Shown: piece after piece, positions 31,729 through 45,747 of the stretch | Numbering within the stretch: position 1 is the stretch's first letter | Layout: every line of letters starts with the position of its first letter | Assembly: GCF_021228795.1 (NCBI RefSeq) | Contig: NZ_CP089309.1 | Span: 4,275,501-4,339,500, forward strand | Direction of reading: 5' to 3' | DNA: 64,000 bases | Origin: Thiocapsa bogorovii | GTDB taxonomy: Bacteria; Pseudomonadota; Gammaproteobacteria; Chromatiales; Chromatiaceae | Position numbers and translations under genes: made by a program | Notes under the pieces: model-generated | What the model saw: only the letters and a program-made list of their open reading frames with translations | Databases searched by the model: none | Told to the model about the DNA's origin: nothing

Positions 31729-32133
31729 CTACTTGGCTTCGCCGGTCGCGGGAGCAGCGGGCGCGGCATAGGGTGCGGCGTAAGGCGCGCCGTAGTAGGG
31801 GACACCGTAACCGGGGTAGCCGTAGCCATAGCCTGGATAACCGTAACCGTAACCGTAGCCGGGATAGCCGTACCCGTAACCACGTCCGTAGCCATAGCCG
31901 CGCCCGCGTCCGTAGCCGCGACCCCCGCCGCTCATGTTCATGTTGAAGTCGCCCCAGCCGTCGCCGAGCATGTCGCCGAACAGGTCACCGAGGCCGGAAC
32001 CATAGCCCGGGCCGTAGCCGCCATAGCCTGGCCCACCCCAACCGGGCCCCCACCACGCCTGGGCCGGGCTGACGGCCAAGGTGGCGGCACCTGCGATTGC
32101 GGCTGCACTCATCAATCTTGCTGTTTGACGCAT
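31729..32133 (-). CDS. Sulfur globule protein-like, Gly/Tyr-rich secreted protein
   Basis: Purple sulfur bacteria enclose intracellular (periplasmic) sulfur globules in a coat of small Gly/Tyr-rich proteins. This 134-residue protein has a signal peptide cleaved after AQA (about residue 26), a mature start [20 protein letters not shown], a conserved short segment [17 protein letters not shown], then Gly-Tyr-Arg repeats ([15 protein letters not shown]) and an Ala/Pro tail. It is the SgpA/SgpB type; which paralogue cannot be decided. ATG 32131-32133 has an AGGAG ribosome site. Confidence 0.82.
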
Positions 32134-39354: not shown

Positions 39355-40620
39355 ATGATCCTCGAGGATCACCAGGTCTTCGTCGGGCTGGCTGTCGCTT
39401 TGGCCATCGGTCTACTCATCGGCGTAGAGCGCGGTTGGAAGGAACGCGGCGCCGAGGAAGGACGACGCGTCGCGGGTGTTCGCACTTATGCGTTGATCGG
39501 GTTTCTCGGCGGGATTTCCGGCCTACTGACCGGACCTTCAGGCGCGTTGACGTTGGGACTGATCTTCGTGGGGCTTGCCGGAGCCCTGTCGGTTGCGCAC
39601 GTCCTGGCCTACAGGCACGACGAGGATGCCGGTATCACCAGCCTTGTCGCCGGCTTGATGACCTTCTTGCTCGGGGCGCTTGCGGTGATCGGCGAGCTGG
39701 CCGCCGCCGCGGCGGCGGCCGTCGTCACGGCCCTGCTGCTGGGGTCCAAGCCGCTGATCCATCGCTGGATCCATGCCATGGAGCAGAAGGATCTCAAGGC
39801 CGGTCTTACCCTGCTGCTCATCTCCGTGGTGGCGTTGCCGGTGTTGCCGGATCAGGGGTACGGCCCATGGAATGCCGTCAACCCGCGTGAAATCTGGTGG
39901 ATGGTGGTTCTGATCGCGAGCATCTCCTTTGTCGGTTATTACGCGATGAGGCTCGTGGGGACGCGGCGCGGGACCCTGTTCACCGGACTCTTCGGTGGTC
40001 TTGCGTCTTCGACCGCGTTGACCCTGCATTTCTCGCGCCTGGCACATGCTCGCGAGGAGATGGTCCCCGTGCTGGCCACCGCAATCCTGGTGGCCTGCGC
40101 GACCATGTTCCCCCGGATGGTGCTGGTGTCGAGCCTGATCCATCCGCCATTGCTGCCGCACTTGATCTGGCCTGCCGCGGCAATGGCCCTGATCGCCTAC
40201 GGATTTGCGGCCTTCTACTGGCTGACTCAGCCGCGTGGCGGCGACGACGCGGACGCGCTTCTCGACAACCCCCTGGAGCTGAAATCCGCGGTCGGCTTCG
40301 GACTTCTGCTTGGCCTGGTGATGCTCTTGGCGAGGGGCATCGAGAGCTGGATCGGAGCGACCGGTGTCATGATGCTGGCCGCCGCCTCGGGGATCGCGGA
40401 TGTGGATGCCATTACCCTCACGATTGCCCGTATGAGCCGCGACGAACTCGCCGTCGGCATTGCGGTCTGGAGCATCGTCATTGCTGCGGCCGTCAACAGC
40501 CTGGTCAAGGGGGTCATTGCGGCCTCGGTCGGTGGTCGCGCGCTGGGTGTGCGCATCACCTTGCCGCTGCTCGGTGCGGGTCTGGGCGGCCTCGCGGTCG
40601 CTTGGTGGACGCTTCTTTGA
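39355..40620 (+). CDS. MgtC/SapB-type plus DUF4010 membrane protein
   Basis: A 421-residue polytopic membrane protein. The N-terminal third is MgtC/SapB-like (VALAIGLLIGVERGWKER ... AGVRTYALIGFLGGISGLL); the rest is a DUF4010-type bundle (KDLKAGLTLLLISVVALPVLP, GGLASSTALTLHFSRLA, ATGVMMLAAASGIADVDAITL). Function unknown; transport is suspected from the fold. It stands alone, and the 189-bp gap before it holds only a small GGCGCC-TC-GGCGCC hairpin (39246-39259). Confidence 0.82.
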   Translation: MILEDHQVFVGLAVALAIGLLIGVERGWKERGAEEGRRVAGVRTYALIGFLGGISGLLTGPSGALTLGLIFVGLAGALSVAHVLAYRHDEDAGITSLVAGLMTFLLGALAVIGELAAAAAAAVVTALLLGSKPLIHRWIHAMEQKDLKAGLTLLLISVVALPVLPDQGYGPWNAVNPREIWWMVVLIASISFVGYYAMRLVGTRRGTLFTGLFGGLASSTALTLHFSRLAHAREEMVPVLATAILVACATMFPRMVLVSSLIHPPLLPHLIWPAAAMALIAYGFAAFYWLTQPRGGDDADALLDNPLELKSAVGFGLLLGLVMLLARGIESWIGATGVMMLAAASGIADVDAITLTIARMSRDELAVGIAVWSIVIAAAVNSLVKGVIAASVGGRALGVRITLPLLGAGLGGLAVAWWTLL

Positions 40621-40672
40621 TCGACGTCTCGCCGTTGCTTGTCATGTCGATCAGGTCGATCGGTGCGGTCGG

Positions 40673-40759
40673 TTAAACCCCGCCCGGTGCGGTCTGCGAT
40701 GTCTTTGGATGGGATCGGCCCCGGCAGGCTTGACGACCGCTGGAATCTGCGCGGTTTAG
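40673..40759. repeat. 87-bp inverted-repeat element, copy C1
   Basis: Ends TTAAACCCCGCCC and GCGCGGTTTAG, imperfect TIR. Its reverse complement is closely related in the interior to copies F and B, and its forward interior to copy I (shared ATGTCTTTGGATGGGATCGG-type core). First half of a tandem pair with C2. Confidence 0.83.
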
Positions 40760-40780
40760 CCGATAAATACATAAGTTATC

Positions 40781-40867
40781 TTAAACCGCGTCCCCGCTGA
40801 TGGCCGTGGATGCGCCAAACGTCGAGTTCACTCGAAAGCCAGCATCTCCCTCTGGACGCGATTCAAA
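40781..40867. repeat. 87-bp inverted-repeat element, copy C2 (hybrid ends)
   Basis: The left end TTAAACCGCGTCC (40781-40793) is the common type, while the right end GGACGCGATTCAA (40855-40867) is the variant type seen in A0. The 21-bp spacer from C1 is A/T-rich. The right end abuts the AGGAGG ribosome site (40867-40872) of the next gene. Confidence 0.78.
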
Positions 40868-40881
40868 GGAGGCGATCGGAA

Positions 40882-43110
40882 ATGAGCACGATGAAACAGT
40901 CCGGCTGCATCCGCAATCTCGTCGGTGTCGCGGTTTGGGCGCTGACCTCGATGTCGGTAGCCGCCTGGTCGGCGACCGCGGAGTTTGACGAGGAGTCGTC
41001 GAGCGCGGCGTCGGTGACCGATGCCGTCTACACGCCGGACGGCAGTGCGCATGAGCGCATGCTTGCGGCCTATCGCACGTGGTCGGAGACCCGATGGCGG
41101 GACTACGACCGGGCACAGGATATCTCCCCGCGACAGATGCTCGTTCTGCTCGAGGTTTCCGAGCGCACCGGGGCCAATCTCGGGCAGGCGCTGGCCACCG
41201 GAGAGATGGAAAGCGCCTATACCTGGAACGATCACGTTCGGCCCACGATCGCCGAAGGTCGGGTGGGTTCGGCGACCGGCGTCTGGCAGTTCCTCCCTGC
41301 AACCTTCCACGGCATCCTCGAAAAGTACGGCGACGAGTTGCTGAGCGCGACCGAGGCGAGAGCGGACCGCGAGTCCATGGACTTGGGAGACGGCCCTTTC
41401 TCCGACGCGCAGGTGCGTCGTTTGATCCGAGACGCGATCGAGGGTGTGCGCGATGCCAAGGACGAGGAGCTGCAGCTGCTGCGTCACAACTTCGCGGTGC
41501 TTGCCTTCGCCAAGCACTACCTGAGTGTGGATTCGGGGGCGACGACGCCCGAAGAGGATTATCTCTTTCATTTTCTCGGCGCCGGGGTGGGTCGACGGAT
41601 CCTGGCGCTGGCGCGCGGCGAGGCGCGGGACACCCTCTGCGTGAAGCCCGTCGAAGAGCCGACGTCGCCCCTCGAGGAGACGCCGGGGGGTGGGCCATCA
41701 AGCACCGACATCGCAAGCCTGCAGCCGGATGCCGCGTCTGATTCCGCGCCGCCGGCCGCAGCGGATCTGAGCCTCGGCGCGGCCCGCGAGCGCTCCGAGC
41801 CGCTCGGTTTGCGGCGGGCGGATCGGCTATCCGCGTCCCGGCAGCCTGCGGATGTGACGATTTACGCGCGCCGGCCCTCCAACGATGTCGCCGTGTCCCG
41901 GCCTGCGCTGAGGGCTGCGGCCTATGCGCCCGCACCCTCCGTCGCGTCTGCCTTCGTTGCGCCGCTCCCGGTGTCGTCGCAGTGGGGTTTGCCCGCCGAC
42001 TCGCCGACGGTCACGGGCAACCTCGGGATGTTCTACCGTGACGGCCGGGAGCAGACGCAACCCTATACCTGGGGCGAGTTCATGGAACATCTGGCCAGGC
42101 GCGTGCGGGCCGAGAGCCAACCGTCAATGGTGCGGGCCAAGTACGGTGTCGGGTTCGATTTGGCTGGTGGCGATATGCCGGAGCGGGCCTTCGATCCGAC
42201 GAAGACGGTCGAGCCGGCGACCTTCAGCCACGGGCCGGACCGGCGCGTGACGGTGCCCATGGCGCTGGTGACGGGGCCGCTCGATCGAGACGAAACCCGT
42301 CACTATAAGGCGCTCCTTGCAGCACTGGTGGGCCGAGGTGAGGACACGCCGATGGAGACACTGCCGCCGCGTGCAGTCTCGGCACTGCGTCACCTCGGCT
42401 TCTTGCCTGCGAATGTGTCGGGGACCGACACGCGTGATCCCGCGGTGCAGAATGCCCTGCGCGCCTTCAGGGAAGCGGTCGGCAAGGCCGAGCCGGAAGA
42501 CCCGGAGCATCGCCATCGTCTCATGCCGGCCGAGCGGATCGCGCTCGAGATCTACGATCGTCGCATCGCGCGTTATGCCGCGCTGCAGGCCGGCCAAAAG
42601 GCGTCCTTGGCCGAGGCGCCCGATCTGACTCGAATCAAGGGCCTGCCGAGCGGGTTGCAGCGTTTGGCTGCGCCTCACCTGGTTCAGCTGCAAACAGCCT
42701 TGGCCGAGCGCGAGCTCCTCAAACAGCCGACCCGGAAATCCGTTTGGCGCGACAAGAAAAAGAAGAAGCGCGTGTCCTACAAGACCATCCCGTTCGCGGG
42801 CAAGGTCGACGCGGCAACGCTCGCCGCGCTCGACGCCTTCCAGTGGCGCAACGGTCTGCGCAAGACCGGCGGCGCGTTGGATGCCGCGACCCTCGGTCTG
42901 CTTGGGTTGCCGCCGATGGGTGCCGAGATCTTCAGGCCCTTGTCCGGCCCTATGTGCTCGGTTCAGATCTGGGCGGGCAGACCGCCGATCTGCGGGATTC
43001 GCCGAGAAACGCAAGACCCGGTTGACGTTGCACGCATCGCCGGGCTCGCGGATCCCGCCCCGGAGTCCTGGTTCGAGGGCATCGTCGTCGGTCTGCCGCA
43101 TGTCCGGTGA
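40882..43110 (+). CDS. Exported lytic transglycosylase-like protein with C-terminal peptidoglycan-binding-like region
   Basis: A 742-residue protein with a signal peptide (LVGVAVWALTSMSVAAWSATA). Residues about 60-190 resemble an SLT-type muramidase (ALATGEMESAYTWNDHV, with the candidate catalytic Glu, then GSATGVWQFLPATFHGIL). The middle is Pro/Ala-rich and low-complexity. The C-terminal part has a basic KKKKKR stretch and a PG-binding-1-like helix set (GKVDAATLAALDAFQWRNGL ... DAATLGLLGLPP). The whole architecture is not one I can name. ATG 40882 was chosen for its AGGAGG site. Overlaps the next gene by 11 bp. Confidence 0.65.
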   Translation: MSTMKQSGCIRNLVGVAVWALTSMSVAAWSATAEFDEESSSAASVTDAVYTPDGSAHERMLAAYRTWSETRWRDYDRAQDISPRQMLVLLEVSERTGANLGQALATGEMESAYTWNDHVRPTIAEGRVGSATGVWQFLPATFHGILEKYGDELLSATEARADRESMDLGDGPFSDAQVRRLIRDAIEGVRDAKDEELQLLRHNFAVLAFAKHYLSVDSGATTPEEDYLFHFLGAGVGRRILALARGEARDTLCVKPVEEPTSPLEETPGGGPSSTDIASLQPDAASDSAPPAAADLSLGAARERSEPLGLRRADRLSASRQPADVTIYARRPSNDVAVSRPALRAAAYAPAPSVASAFVAPLPVSSQWGLPADSPTVTGNLGMFYRDGREQTQPYTWGEFMEHLARRVRAESQPSMVRAKYGVGFDLAGGDMPERAFDPTKTVEPATFSHGPDRRVTVPMALVTGPLDRDETRHYKALLAALVGRGEDTPMETLPPRAVSALRHLGFLPANVSGTDTRDPAVQNALRAFREAVGKAEPEDPEHRHRLMPAERIALEIYDRRIARYAALQAGQKASLAEAPDLTRIKGLPSGLQRLAAPHLVQLQTALAERELLKQPTRKSVWRDKKKKKRVSYKTIPFAGKVDAATLAALDAFQWRNGLRKTGGALDAATLGLLGLPPMGAEIFRPLSGPMCSVQIWAGRPPICGIRRETQDPVDVARIAGLADPAPESWFEGIVVGLPHVR

Positions 43111-43741
43111 GCAGTCCCCGAGCGTCGCTGCTCGGCGATCCAAGCGTCTGCGCGACTGGGTCATCAACATCGCGCTGATCCTGCTGATCTTCGGCACCGT
43201 TCAATGGTGGACGGCGCGCCCCCTGGTCACCGGCGAGGCACCGCCGCTCGCCGGCGTCACCCTGGATGGACAGACGTTCGACCTTGACGCGCTCGCCGGA
43301 CGGCCGGTGCTGGTGCACTTCTGGGCGAGCTGGTGTCCGGTCTGCGGTCTGATGGACGGCGCCGTTGCCTCGATCGCCGAGGACTATGCAGTGGTGACCG
43401 TAGCGATCCAATCCGGCGGTCCGGACGAGCTGCGACGCGACATGGCCGAGTCGGGCCATGCGTTTCCGGTGATCGCCGACCCAGCCGGTTGGATCGCTGA
43501 TCGATGGGGGGTCGTCGGTGTGCCGGCCACTTTCGTGGTCGATTCCTCCGGCCGGATCCGCGATGCGGTCGTCGGGATCGCGACCCAGCCTGGCCTGCGT
43601 TGGCGTCTGTGGCGCGCCGGCACGAGGTCGCCCGATGTTGCCCCGGGGGCCGGCGGCATTCAGGCGGCCGGGATAGGCATTCATCTAGACGTTGCCGGAT
43701 CTGGTTCATCAACCGCAAAGCGCAGCCCGAGCATAAATTAG
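43100..43741 (+). CDS. Membrane-tethered thioredoxin-like protein (TlpA/ScsD type)
   Basis: 213 residues: one N-terminal membrane helix (about 20-38, WVINIALILLIFGTVQWW), then a periplasmic thioredoxin fold with redox pair C79-P-V-C82 (FWASWCPVCG) and the cis-Pro region GVPATFVVD. Probably reduces or oxidises disulfides in the periplasm. The C-terminal ~35 residues are low-complexity. Coupled to the upstream transglycosylase-like gene. Confidence 0.82.
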   Translation: MSGEQSPSVAARRSKRLRDWVINIALILLIFGTVQWWTARPLVTGEAPPLAGVTLDGQTFDLDALAGRPVLVHFWASWCPVCGLMDGAVASIAEDYAVVTVAIQSGGPDELRRDMAESGHAFPVIADPAGWIADRWGVVGVPATFVVDSSGRIRDAVVGIATQPGLRWRLWRAGTRSPDVAPGAGGIQAAGIGIHLDVAGSGSSTAKRSPSIN

Positions 43742-43841
43742 AGCTTGCTAATTTAGTAATTTCTAATATACTGCTCGTCAGTGGAGGCCGAGACGGACTC
43801 CATGCTTGCTGCCAACAACATAAAACGATTCGGAGAATTGA

Positions 43842-44201
43842 ATGAACAAGCTTGCTACTGCTGCTGCCATCGCCGCCCTCCTCGGTGCTTCCGCTTCCGC
43901 GTCCGCATGGTGGGGTCCGGGTGCCGGCGGGTACGGCCCGGGCTACGGCTCCGGTCTCGGCGATACCTTCGGCGACATGTTCGGCGACGGCTACGGCGAC
44001 TTCAACTTCGGCATGAGCGGCGGCGGTAGTGGTCGTGGCTACGGTCGCGGTCAGGGTCGCGGCTACGGCTACGGCTACAACAACCCCTACTACGGCTATG
44101 GCGCGCCTTACTACGGCGGCGGTTACCCCTACGCCTACCCCTATGCCGCGCCGGTCGCCCCGATGGCGCCTGTTGCTCCGGCTCAGCCCCAAGTCAAGTA
44201 A
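43842..44201 (+). CDS. Sulfur globule protein-like, Gly/Tyr-rich secreted protein (second copy)
   Basis: 119 residues; signal peptide [20 protein letters not shown] with cleavage after ASA (about residue 22), mature start [20 protein letters not shown], conserved [19 protein letters not shown], Gly/Arg/Tyr repeats (GRGYGYGYN) and an Ala/Pro/Val tail. Same architecture as the product at 31729-32133, so the two are paralogues of the SgpA/SgpB kind. The region just upstream (43735-43772) is strikingly A/T-rich and probably holds a strong promoter. Confidence 0.82.
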
Positions 44202-44242
44202 GATCCGCTTGAACACCGATGCGCCTCGCGCGCATCGGTACG

Positions 44243-44272
44243 AAAAAGGCCAGGCGTTAGCCTGGCCTTTTT
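44243..44272 (+). terminator. Intrinsic terminator of the second sulfur globule gene
   Basis: AAAAAGGCCAGGC-GTTA-GCCTGGCCTTTTT, a perfect 13-bp stem with T-run, 42 bp after the stop. Confidence 0.9.
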
Positions 44273-44385
44273 CGTTTTGTGCCTGAGATCTGCACGGCAA
44301 GCCCCGGGGACCGAATGGCGCTCGGGGCGCCGATTGTGTATCGTCTTCTCGTCCGGTCCCCACGGGTCCTCTGACCCGATGCGAC

Positions 44386-45747
44386 TCAGCTCAAGAGCAG
44401 CTTGCGGCCGAACGGCTGCTCCGGCGTTGCGTAGGATTCGGGTACGGCCCAAATGACCGGCCAACCGGGGCGGAAACGTGCGGGGCCATCCAGATCGGTC
44501 AGAACCACGCCGATATCCGGCCCATGCTTGTCGGCTTCTTCGAGCAGGGGTGTGAAATCGGTCCCGCCGCCGCCGTTGAATTCGATGTCCCGCAGATCCG
44601 ATCGTCCGGGCTTGAAGTGTGCGACCCGTTGCACCCGACAGTCACCGATCACGAGCACGAGCGATGCCTCCAGACGCCGCGTGATCGCCTCGATTTCGCC
44701 GGCGAAGCGTTCCATCAGGTTGTCCTCGACCGAGCCCGAGACATCGACGATCACCACCAATCGCGGTACCGACTTGGACGCGCTGATGCCGGGCTCCCAG
44801 GGCAGGCGCCGACCCGACCCCATCCTTCCCTGATTGGCGATGTAGGACCGGGCCGGCCTCGACCAGGAGAGAGCGGGCTGAATCGAGAGACCGCGTGCCA
44901 GCTGCGTGCGCAGGATCTGCTCCCAGGGCGTGCGGATCTTCGGAAGATCCGCGATCAGGGCGCGGAGCATGGAGTGCGCACCGTCTCCGGCATGGGCACG
45001 CAGGATGCGCTCGCTCCATTCGCGTGCCTGCTCGGCCTCCAGCTCGGGTTGCTTCTGCGCATCGGGTTGGGGGAAGAGATCGGCATGGGTCTCGGCGCCG
45101 AGTGACCTGACCCGCGCGGACATCGGGCCGTCCTCGCGGACCTCGGTTCGGGACGACGCGTCGATCTCGTCCCGCGAAGCGCGCCCCTCCATGCCGGGTT
45201 GGTTGTCGCCGATCCCGCCGCGGCGACGACTGCGGGTTTTTTGGACCCGACCCGTGTCCGCGGCCCGGCGGTCGTCGATCGCGCGATAGAGGCGCTCGAC
45301 ATCCCATTCGAGCAGGGCCTTGTCGACACCGACATCGATGCCGAGCGTGGCGAGTAGGAGCTTGTCGAGGAACACCGACGAGATCGGCAACTCGAGCCAG
45401 CTCAGGTGACTCAAGGCGCTGTTGACGATGGCGTCCGCGCAGATGTTGAACAGCTCAAGATCCACATCGCCCAAGAGATTCTGCAGATCGAGATAGCGTT
45501 GCGGATGCCGCAAAGCGATATGCAGAACCTCGTGCGCGACGAAACCGACCTGCAGGGGCCGCGAGAGTTGCTCGAAGGATGCGCCGTAATAGACGGTGTC
45601 CCCATCCGTTGCGACCGGACCCGGGTCCATCTCGGGCGGCAGATCCCGGTGCTTGACCCAGAGCGCCAGCCCGCCGGTCGACGGCGCAAATTCCACCATC
45701 TGCTGAATCGCTCGCGTCCCGCGGTGGCTGTAAAGATCATTCGTCAT
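44386..45747 (-). CDS. DUF2201 / VWA-like metallopeptidase-domain protein
   Basis: 453 residues. The N-terminal part has a zinc-protease-like HEVLH (72-76, FVAHEVLHIALRHPQR). A long charged linker follows (Arg/Asp-rich, 150-220). The C-terminal part is von Willebrand A-like with a MIDAS-type DVSGS (VVIVDVSGSVEDNLMERF) and GGGGTDFTPLLEEA. Proteins of this kind are encoded next to MoxR-type AAA ATPases, as here (22-bp gap). Biochemical role unknown; a metal- or cofactor-insertion or chaperone pair is the usual suggestion. Confidence 0.8.
   Translation of the reverse strand: MTNDLYSHRGTRAIQQMVEFAPSTGGLALWVKHRDLPPEMDPGPVATDGDTVYYGASFEQLSRPLQVGFVAHEVLHIALRHPQRYLDLQNLLGDVDLELFNICADAIVNSALSHLSWLELPISSVFLDKLLLATLGIDVGVDKALLEWDVERLYRAIDDRRAADTGRVQKTRSRRRGGIGDNQPGMEGRASRDEIDASSRTEVREDGPMSARVRSLGAETHADLFPQPDAQKQPELEAEQAREWSERILRAHAGDGAHSMLRALIADLPKIRTPWEQILRTQLARGLSIQPALSWSRPARSYIANQGRMGSGRRLPWEPGISASKSVPRLVVIVDVSGSVEDNLMERFAGEIEAITRRLEASLVLVIGDCRVQRVAHFKPGRSDLRDIEFNGGGGTDFTPLLEEADKHGPDIGVVLTDLDGPARFRPGWPVIWAVPESYATPEQPFGRKLLLS

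Follow-up and report, generated by a model that had tools for sequence, protein, structure and literature searches.

In Allochromatium vinosum, the sulfur globule coat proteins SgpA and SgpB, members of the PF17228 family, are reportedly encoded by separate units with promoters and terminators, as papers of 1998 and 2004 are said to describe. The A. vinosum sgp genes are also placed apart from one another in a passage of PMC3368242. In Thiocapsa bogorovii, a coat gene of the same family (gene C) lies directly downstream of two other genes, one for a transglycosylase-like protein (gene A) and one for a thioredoxin-fold protein (gene B), within a stretch of 64,000 nucleotides of contig NZ_CP089309.1 (positions 4,275,501 to 4,339,500), the whole of which is referred to here as the window. 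The genome, labelled G000 in the comparisons below, comprises 5,649,927 bases in one contig.

Stem-loops at the extreme 5' end, of which that of ompA is the type, act as stabilisers of bacterial mRNA. Among wall-degrading enzymes, gp144 of bacteriophage phiKZ (PDB 3bkh) has a principal active site formed by Glu115 and Tyr197, according to a section of PMC5406664. Salmonella ScsD is described in an excerpt of PMC3672137 as a predicted integral membrane protein that contributes to copper tolerance. 

The locus is best explained as two adjacent transcription units (probability about 0.7). The first consists of A and B and encodes a gp144-like wall enzyme and a ScsD-like protein; the second is C alone, with a promoter, a hairpin and a terminator of its own. 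The start of B lies inside the end of A, and B is therefore probably translated by coupling to A. The A protein would be exported and anchored to peptidoglycan through the binding domain near its C-terminus, and is predicted to cut glycan strands as a gp144-like lytic transglycosylase, with Glu110 as the acid/base and Tyr227 positioning it. B would be a ScsD-like thiol-disulfide oxidoreductase, anchored in the membrane and exposed to the periplasm. Transcription of C would run from its own promoter to its own terminator, yielding an mRNA whose predicted 5' end coincides with a hairpin or lies no more than about 3 nt from it; by analogy, this hairpin would protect the mRNA from 5'-end-dependent decay. 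In this account the genes, their homology and synteny, the deletions and the covariation are observed; the activities of the enzymes, the ends of the transcripts, the role of the hairpin and the substrate of B are predictions.

Gene order and its conservation

An earlier note on this DNA, made from the sequence alone, had described three exported products encoded in a row, the first two genes overlapping by 11 bp. Open reading frames for all three are present (Table 1) and their coordinates bear out the overlap (43100-43110), which recurs at the same length in G010, G007, G004 and G003, the other four Thiocapsa genomes that have A and B intact. The N-termini of A, B and C, judged by eye, resemble signal peptides or a membrane anchor. 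An alternative in-frame start of A at 40810 would give a protein of 766 residues; the start at 40882 is favoured because of an AAGGAGG sequence at about 40867-40873 and the N-termini of the Thiocapsa orthologues.

The further suggestion, that the three genes form a globule-related set, does not survive comparison with other genomes. The order A-B-C is intact in only five of 11 Thiocapsa genomes (G000, G003, G004, G007 and G010). In three others A or B has been lost and C kept: G002 lacks the stretch equivalent to 40605-43078, so that A is gone except for its end; G001 lacks 40621-42526 and retains the last 200 residues of A; and G008 lacks 43147-43734, a deletion that leaves 13 codons of B and ends exactly where the promoter region of C starts. 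On an unrooted tree of five proteins from nine genomes (G003 and G005 left out), these deletions fall on three separate branches. All eight Thiocapsa genomes that carry the locus have retained C together with its upstream region. Identity to C in five other aligned Thiocapsa sequences is 93-99%; the corresponding values are 81-84% for A and 79-84% for B. In G006 and G009, different genes follow truD, and none of A, B and C is among them; G005, in which the orthologous place fell outside the locus comparison, has no A.

Among 77 family genomes, coat genes are found in 70 and relatives of B (E 1e-20) in 36, while A is found in eight (E <1e-90; another seven matches, at 0.017 to 0.39, are probably fortuitous). 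A scan of 84,980 species for A, which requires conserved 8-residue words and which remote relatives could escape, returned 29 named loci, all in purple sulfur bacteria genera or Chromatiaceae records. The genera, which we take to belong to this family, are Thiocapsa, Thiocystis, Lamprocystis, Thiobaca, Thiodictyon, Halochromatium, Thiorhodococcus, Lamprobacter and Thiohalocapsa, besides other Chromatiaceae. The first gene caller had overlooked B in the window, and B was therefore sought again by tblastn; in the 25 A loci outside Thiocapsa (L113-L137), nine of which are short (3.9-8.2 kb), this found neither B nor a coat protein. Because tblastn missed C in one of seven positive-control loci (L094), coat genes were retested with a profile, which finds C in all seven controls and in none of the 25 named loci outside Thiocapsa. 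Among five duplicate loci the profile gives one weak match (L096, 17.9 bits without composition correction).

A single globule operon is rejected on the basis of the deletions, the separate promoter region of C, the limited conservation of the order within the genus and the empty result in the 25 loci outside it. The A-B-C neighbourhood is best seen as a peculiarity of Thiocapsa and not as a globule module, and a tempting but unsupported tie between wall remodelling and sulfur globules is thereby removed.

Table 1. Features of the A-B-C locus, in window coordinates
Feature	Position	Strand	Basis
Gene A, exported transglycosylase-like protein, 742 aa	40882..43110	+	Open reading frame; homologues aligned
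A residues 54-258, first part of lysozyme-like catalytic domain, with E110 (= gp144 E115) and Y227 (= gp144 Y197)	41041..41655	+	
A residues 259-363, low-complexity stretch, probable insertion loop of the catalytic domain	41656..41970	+	Alignment; predicted local distance difference test (pLDDT) <50
A residues 364-432, conserved second part, probably end of catalytic domain	41971..42177	+	Model match, alignment
A residues 433-589, conserved, mostly helical part	42178..42648	+	Alignment, model
A residues 590-676, peptidoglycan-binding domain	42649..42909	+	PF01471; SltB3 structural match
A residues 677-742, tail with conserved cysteines 692 and 704	42910..43107	+	
Gene B, membrane-anchored ScsD-like thioredoxin-fold protein, 213 aa, WCPVC (Cys79, Cys82)	43100..43741	+	
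Near-perfect palindrome, AAATTAG-N6-GCTAATTT family (AAATTAGAGCTTGCTAATTT), overlapping predicted -35 of C	43735..43754	.	
Predicted promoter of C (TTGCTA, 16 nt, TATACT)	43745..43772	+	Scan; conserved in 8 Thiocapsa genomes
Hairpin at predicted 5' end of C mRNA (leader 43773-43841)	43781..43803	+	
Gene C, sulfur globule coat protein (PF17228), 119 aa	43842..44201	+	
Terminator-like hairpin after C, 13 pairs	44243..44272	+	z -6.18

The coat gene, its start region and its leader

The C protein matches the PF17228 (SGP) profile with an E-value of 5.1e-24 (85.4 bits, cut-off 26.7) and begins with what appears by eye to be a signal peptide. It contains no cysteine, and B therefore has no protein thiol to act on in C. 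Five coat-type genes are given for T. bogorovii in part of its genome paper (PMC10892978); judging by the spacing of locus tags there, C is probably LT988_19155 (annotated CV1). A second coat-type gene lies in the window about 12 kb upstream, beside pyrG (31729-32112, reverse strand; PF17228, E 1.2e-12), and would by the same spacing be LT988_19100. PF17228 finds four coat genes in the genome against the five of that part of the paper, the CV3-type gene probably being beyond the reach of the profile.

The promoter region and leader of C can be aligned in eight genomes, including G008, in which B is deleted right up to the promoter region. The palindrome that overlaps the predicted -35 element is kept with small changes in eight Thiocapsa genomes; the pattern AAATTAGAGCTTGCTAATTT, built from the site itself, has one match in the window and none in 100 shuffles. 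It is a possible site for a regulator.

The predicted mRNA of C would open with a hairpin, which taken alone has a folding z-score of -2.68. Similar structures were sought in 116 coat-gene upstream regions from 59 family genomes (one region, L243, was too short and was left out). A TATA-type box, of a pattern picked after inspection of the sequences, stands at a suitable distance in 82 of the 116, representing 55 of the 59 genomes. Over the 40 nt that follow the box, these 82 regions have a mean folding z, relative to dinucleotide shuffles, of -1.43, with 62% below -1, compared with 0.06 and 20% for control windows in the same sequences. In an alignment of 43 sequences, 76.2% of cells are paired, against 67.0 +- 1.4 for shuffles and 29-48% for slid partners, a comparison biased in favour of the stem over its slid versions, as the structure was drawn partly from the tested sequences. 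In the same alignment 41 cells have changed on both sides of the stem (shuffles 19 +- 4.2). For 28 sequences chosen for a shared downstream motif, pairing rises to 84.9% and both sides of the stem have changed in 28 cells (shuffles 10.4 +- 2.8), again without an excess in the number of doubly changed pairs. The stem begins 7-8 nt past a TATANT box in all 28 rows of this chosen alignment. Covariation supports a stem, and the position of the box would place it where the C mRNA begins.

A covariance model of the 28 leaders, run on the T. bogorovii genome at E 1, returns two places, each of which precedes a coat gene and belongs to the training set (150 of 939 candidates scored); it has no match before the coat gene at 31729-32112. 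Across 57 family genomes it returns 13 places in 11 genomes, ten of them training sequences. Of the three new places, two are located upstream of coat-like genes; the remaining one is at the end of a contig, where it stands ahead of a start codon with a similar beginning. Near C, Rfam gives 12 sub-threshold matches, all at 44192-44300 and none in the leader, even below threshold. No description of a coat-gene leader hairpin was found among the papers listed by searches of the open-access literature.

As in the ompA type of stabiliser, the C leader has its hairpin where the mRNA is predicted to begin, and the message encodes an abundant exported protein. Unlike the ompA type, the hairpin is shared by a gene family across genera, and the end of the C mRNA is predicted from sequence. 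As a lead, a covarying 5' hairpin could explain how large amounts of coat protein are produced from single genes, and it offers a handle for locating coat genes in unannotated genomes. A bolder proposal, that it is an RNA element common to Chromatiaceae coat genes which ties the lifetime or translation of coat mRNA to sulfur supply, is doubtful; if true, such an element would keep coat protein in pace with globule volume.

The products of genes A and B

The three identifications in the earlier note (a transglycosylase-like protein, a periplasm-facing thioredoxin-fold protein and a globule coat protein) are upheld. Its description of A as an SLT-like head, a low-complexity middle and a peptidoglycan-binding tail is correct in outline, except that the head is not matched by the Pfam SLT family. 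SLT (PF01464) exceeds its curated cut-off at ten other places in the genome, but neither in A nor in any of 27 homologues. The sole Pfam match in A is PG_binding_1 (PF01471; residues 630-674, E 3.3e-6), which is also matched in 22 of the 27 homologues.

The head instead resembles gp144, which tops both profile-based and single-sequence searches of solved structures, albeit weakly (E 0.023-0.026 and 0.013-0.014). Aligned directly with gp144, residues 100-258 score 72, the best of 1000 shuffles scoring 48, and two motifs (SATG..QF and YL.HF.G) occur in the same order in both proteins. An hhalign comparison with the transglycosylase of phage RVTF4 gives a probability of 56.5 over 126 columns. Pfam, NCBIfam and PHROGs contribute little on A. 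In PHROGs, transglycosylase is matched by 12 of the 27 homologues (best 1.5e-4) and endolysin families by up to five (best 1e-6), the matched part not being displayed for most members. A phage search with the head gave a best E of 2e-3, and a plasmid search gave no match.

An AlphaFold model of A, built from the 27-sequence alignment (mean pLDDT 62.7), agrees with this assignment. VIA-align matches it to gp144 (3bkh) with Z 10.9, root-mean-square deviation (rmsd) 3.1 over 161 residues and 24% identity, although a Z of this size can arise by chance in helical models; gp144 again (Z 7.8), SltB3 and then Slt, Cj0843 and MltE follow. The binding domain matches SltB3 (Z 6.3, rmsd 2.0 over 56 residues). 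E110, Y227 and H230 are invariant in all 27 homologues, and the position matching the secondary Tyr147 of gp144 is Tyr or Phe. Thus, A is predicted to be a remote lytic transglycosylase of the phiKZ gp144 type, and glycan cleavage is its predicted activity.

The match to gp144 pairs residues 74-414 of the model with 82-260 of the phage protein and so spans the low-complexity stretch 259-363, where homologues vary freely in length and sequence before conservation resumes at about 365-431. Residues 364-432 score 49 against the C-terminal end of the RVTF4 enzyme, which was chosen after turning up in the phage search, with a best of 48 among 1000 shuffles, and 25 of the 27 homologues align there. 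With moderate support, the catalytic domain is probably interrupted by a disordered loop. A shares with gp144 the fold of the head, the catalytic equivalents and the combination with a peptidoglycan-binding domain in one protein; unlike gp144, it is exported and chromosomal, has its binding domain on the C-terminal side, and contains a 105-residue catalytic insert and a 157-residue middle part. This Chromatiaceae transglycosylase family, with its seemingly split catalytic domain, is a lead in its own right.

B has an AhpC-TSA/thioredoxin fold (Pfam, 2.3e-16) with a single CxxC motif, and no NCBIfam model exceeds its cut-off. Relatives of B occur in 987 plasmid records; among the 30 matches listed, most annotated ones are named 'protein disulfide oxidoreductase', and in one case the match falls on scsC. 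B is about 34-38% identical to the ScsD-like proteins of plasmids. B thus shares with ScsD and TlpA-like disulfide oxidoreductases the fold, one CxxC and an N-terminal anchor (judged by eye). Unlike ScsD systems, it lacks scsABC beside it, its neighbours in the window being A, C and housekeeping genes; the rest of the genome was not searched for scs. Cys692 and Cys704 of A are kept in 11 of 11 closer homologues and in 20 and 19 rows, respectively, of the 27-row alignment, five rows of which lack the tail. This pair would be the likeliest substrate of B within its own unit, general periplasmic disulfide upkeep being equally likely. Thiobaca (G057) has A and no relative of B at E 1e-20.

Alternative readings and further neighbours

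Several observations count against the two-unit explanation or parts of it. Read-through from A-B into C may occur, and the promoter scan (40600-44400), which found the C site alone, is by itself near chance, with 0.5 sites expected. Taken as a whole, the 69-nt leader is no more stably folded than its shuffles (z -0.59), RNAalifold alone recovers a four-pair helix only, and two of the five covariation measures for the 43 sequences are no higher than in shuffles (pairs with double changes 6 versus 5.7, further pair types 20 versus 19.4). The leader model has no match in 46 of 57 family genomes, in which stems differ more or a leader is missing. For A, sequence matches to gp144 reach just E 0.01-0.03, plain Foldseek returns 24 matches at E up to 10 and none at 0.001, residues 106-134, including the catalytic Glu, are modelled at pLDDT <50, and a model of residues 52-432 alone is poor (46.7) and unusable. 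The likeness of the second part hangs on a single phage relative, RVTF4: against gp144 itself, 549 of 1000 shuffles equal the score of residues 364-432, and eight of the 27 homologues align at the gp144 end. Co-occurrence of A and B is weak (7 of 8 versus 29 of 69 genomes, p 0.022) and was rejected as support because relatedness was not controlled.

It could be argued that the three products work as a set in the periplasm, with remodelling of the wall and thiol chemistry helping globules to grow or to be turned over, given that the genes are adjacent on one strand, with A and B coupled, that the order is intact in five Thiocapsa genomes, and that every named A locus falls in genera of purple sulfur bacteria, which we take to be Chromatiaceae, or in Chromatiaceae records. 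Such a set is quite improbable, since C outlives A or B in three genomes, coat genes are far more widespread than A, none of the 25 A loci outside Thiocapsa holds B or a coat gene, and C has a conserved start region and no cysteine. Alternatively, the inverted repeat that follows the promoter of the coat genes might be a DNA operator for a regulator, which would look alike in the sequence, and a further palindrome does lie upstream of C. This is unlikely: stem letters differ between genera with pairing kept, in contrast to a fixed binding site for a protein; G-U, a pairing found only in RNA, accounts for 27 of 214 paired cells; and the stem starts 7-8 nt from the box in all 28 chosen rows. The nearest known relatives of A are phage lysins, and A might be a domesticated or decayed lysin without a cellular role; the invariance of its catalytic positions, the 44-85% identity of homologues across about ten genera, its signal-like N-terminus and the fact that no phage genes are seen beside A in Thiocapsa loci make this very doubtful. 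Two adjacent units, one encoding an exported wall enzyme with its ScsD-like neighbour and one the coat protein, remain the preferred explanation.

Other genes accompany A or C in individual lineages. In seven Thiohalocapsa-type loci (L128, L129 and L133-L137), a gene for 619-620 aa lies directly before A on the other strand. A is followed in L122, L130 and L131 by genes for 177-178 and 484 aa, which we take to resemble a two-part transporter. In G001 (L094, 10310-14002), three extra genes separate C from the next conserved gene, the first of which resembles, by eye, a transposon-associated protein.

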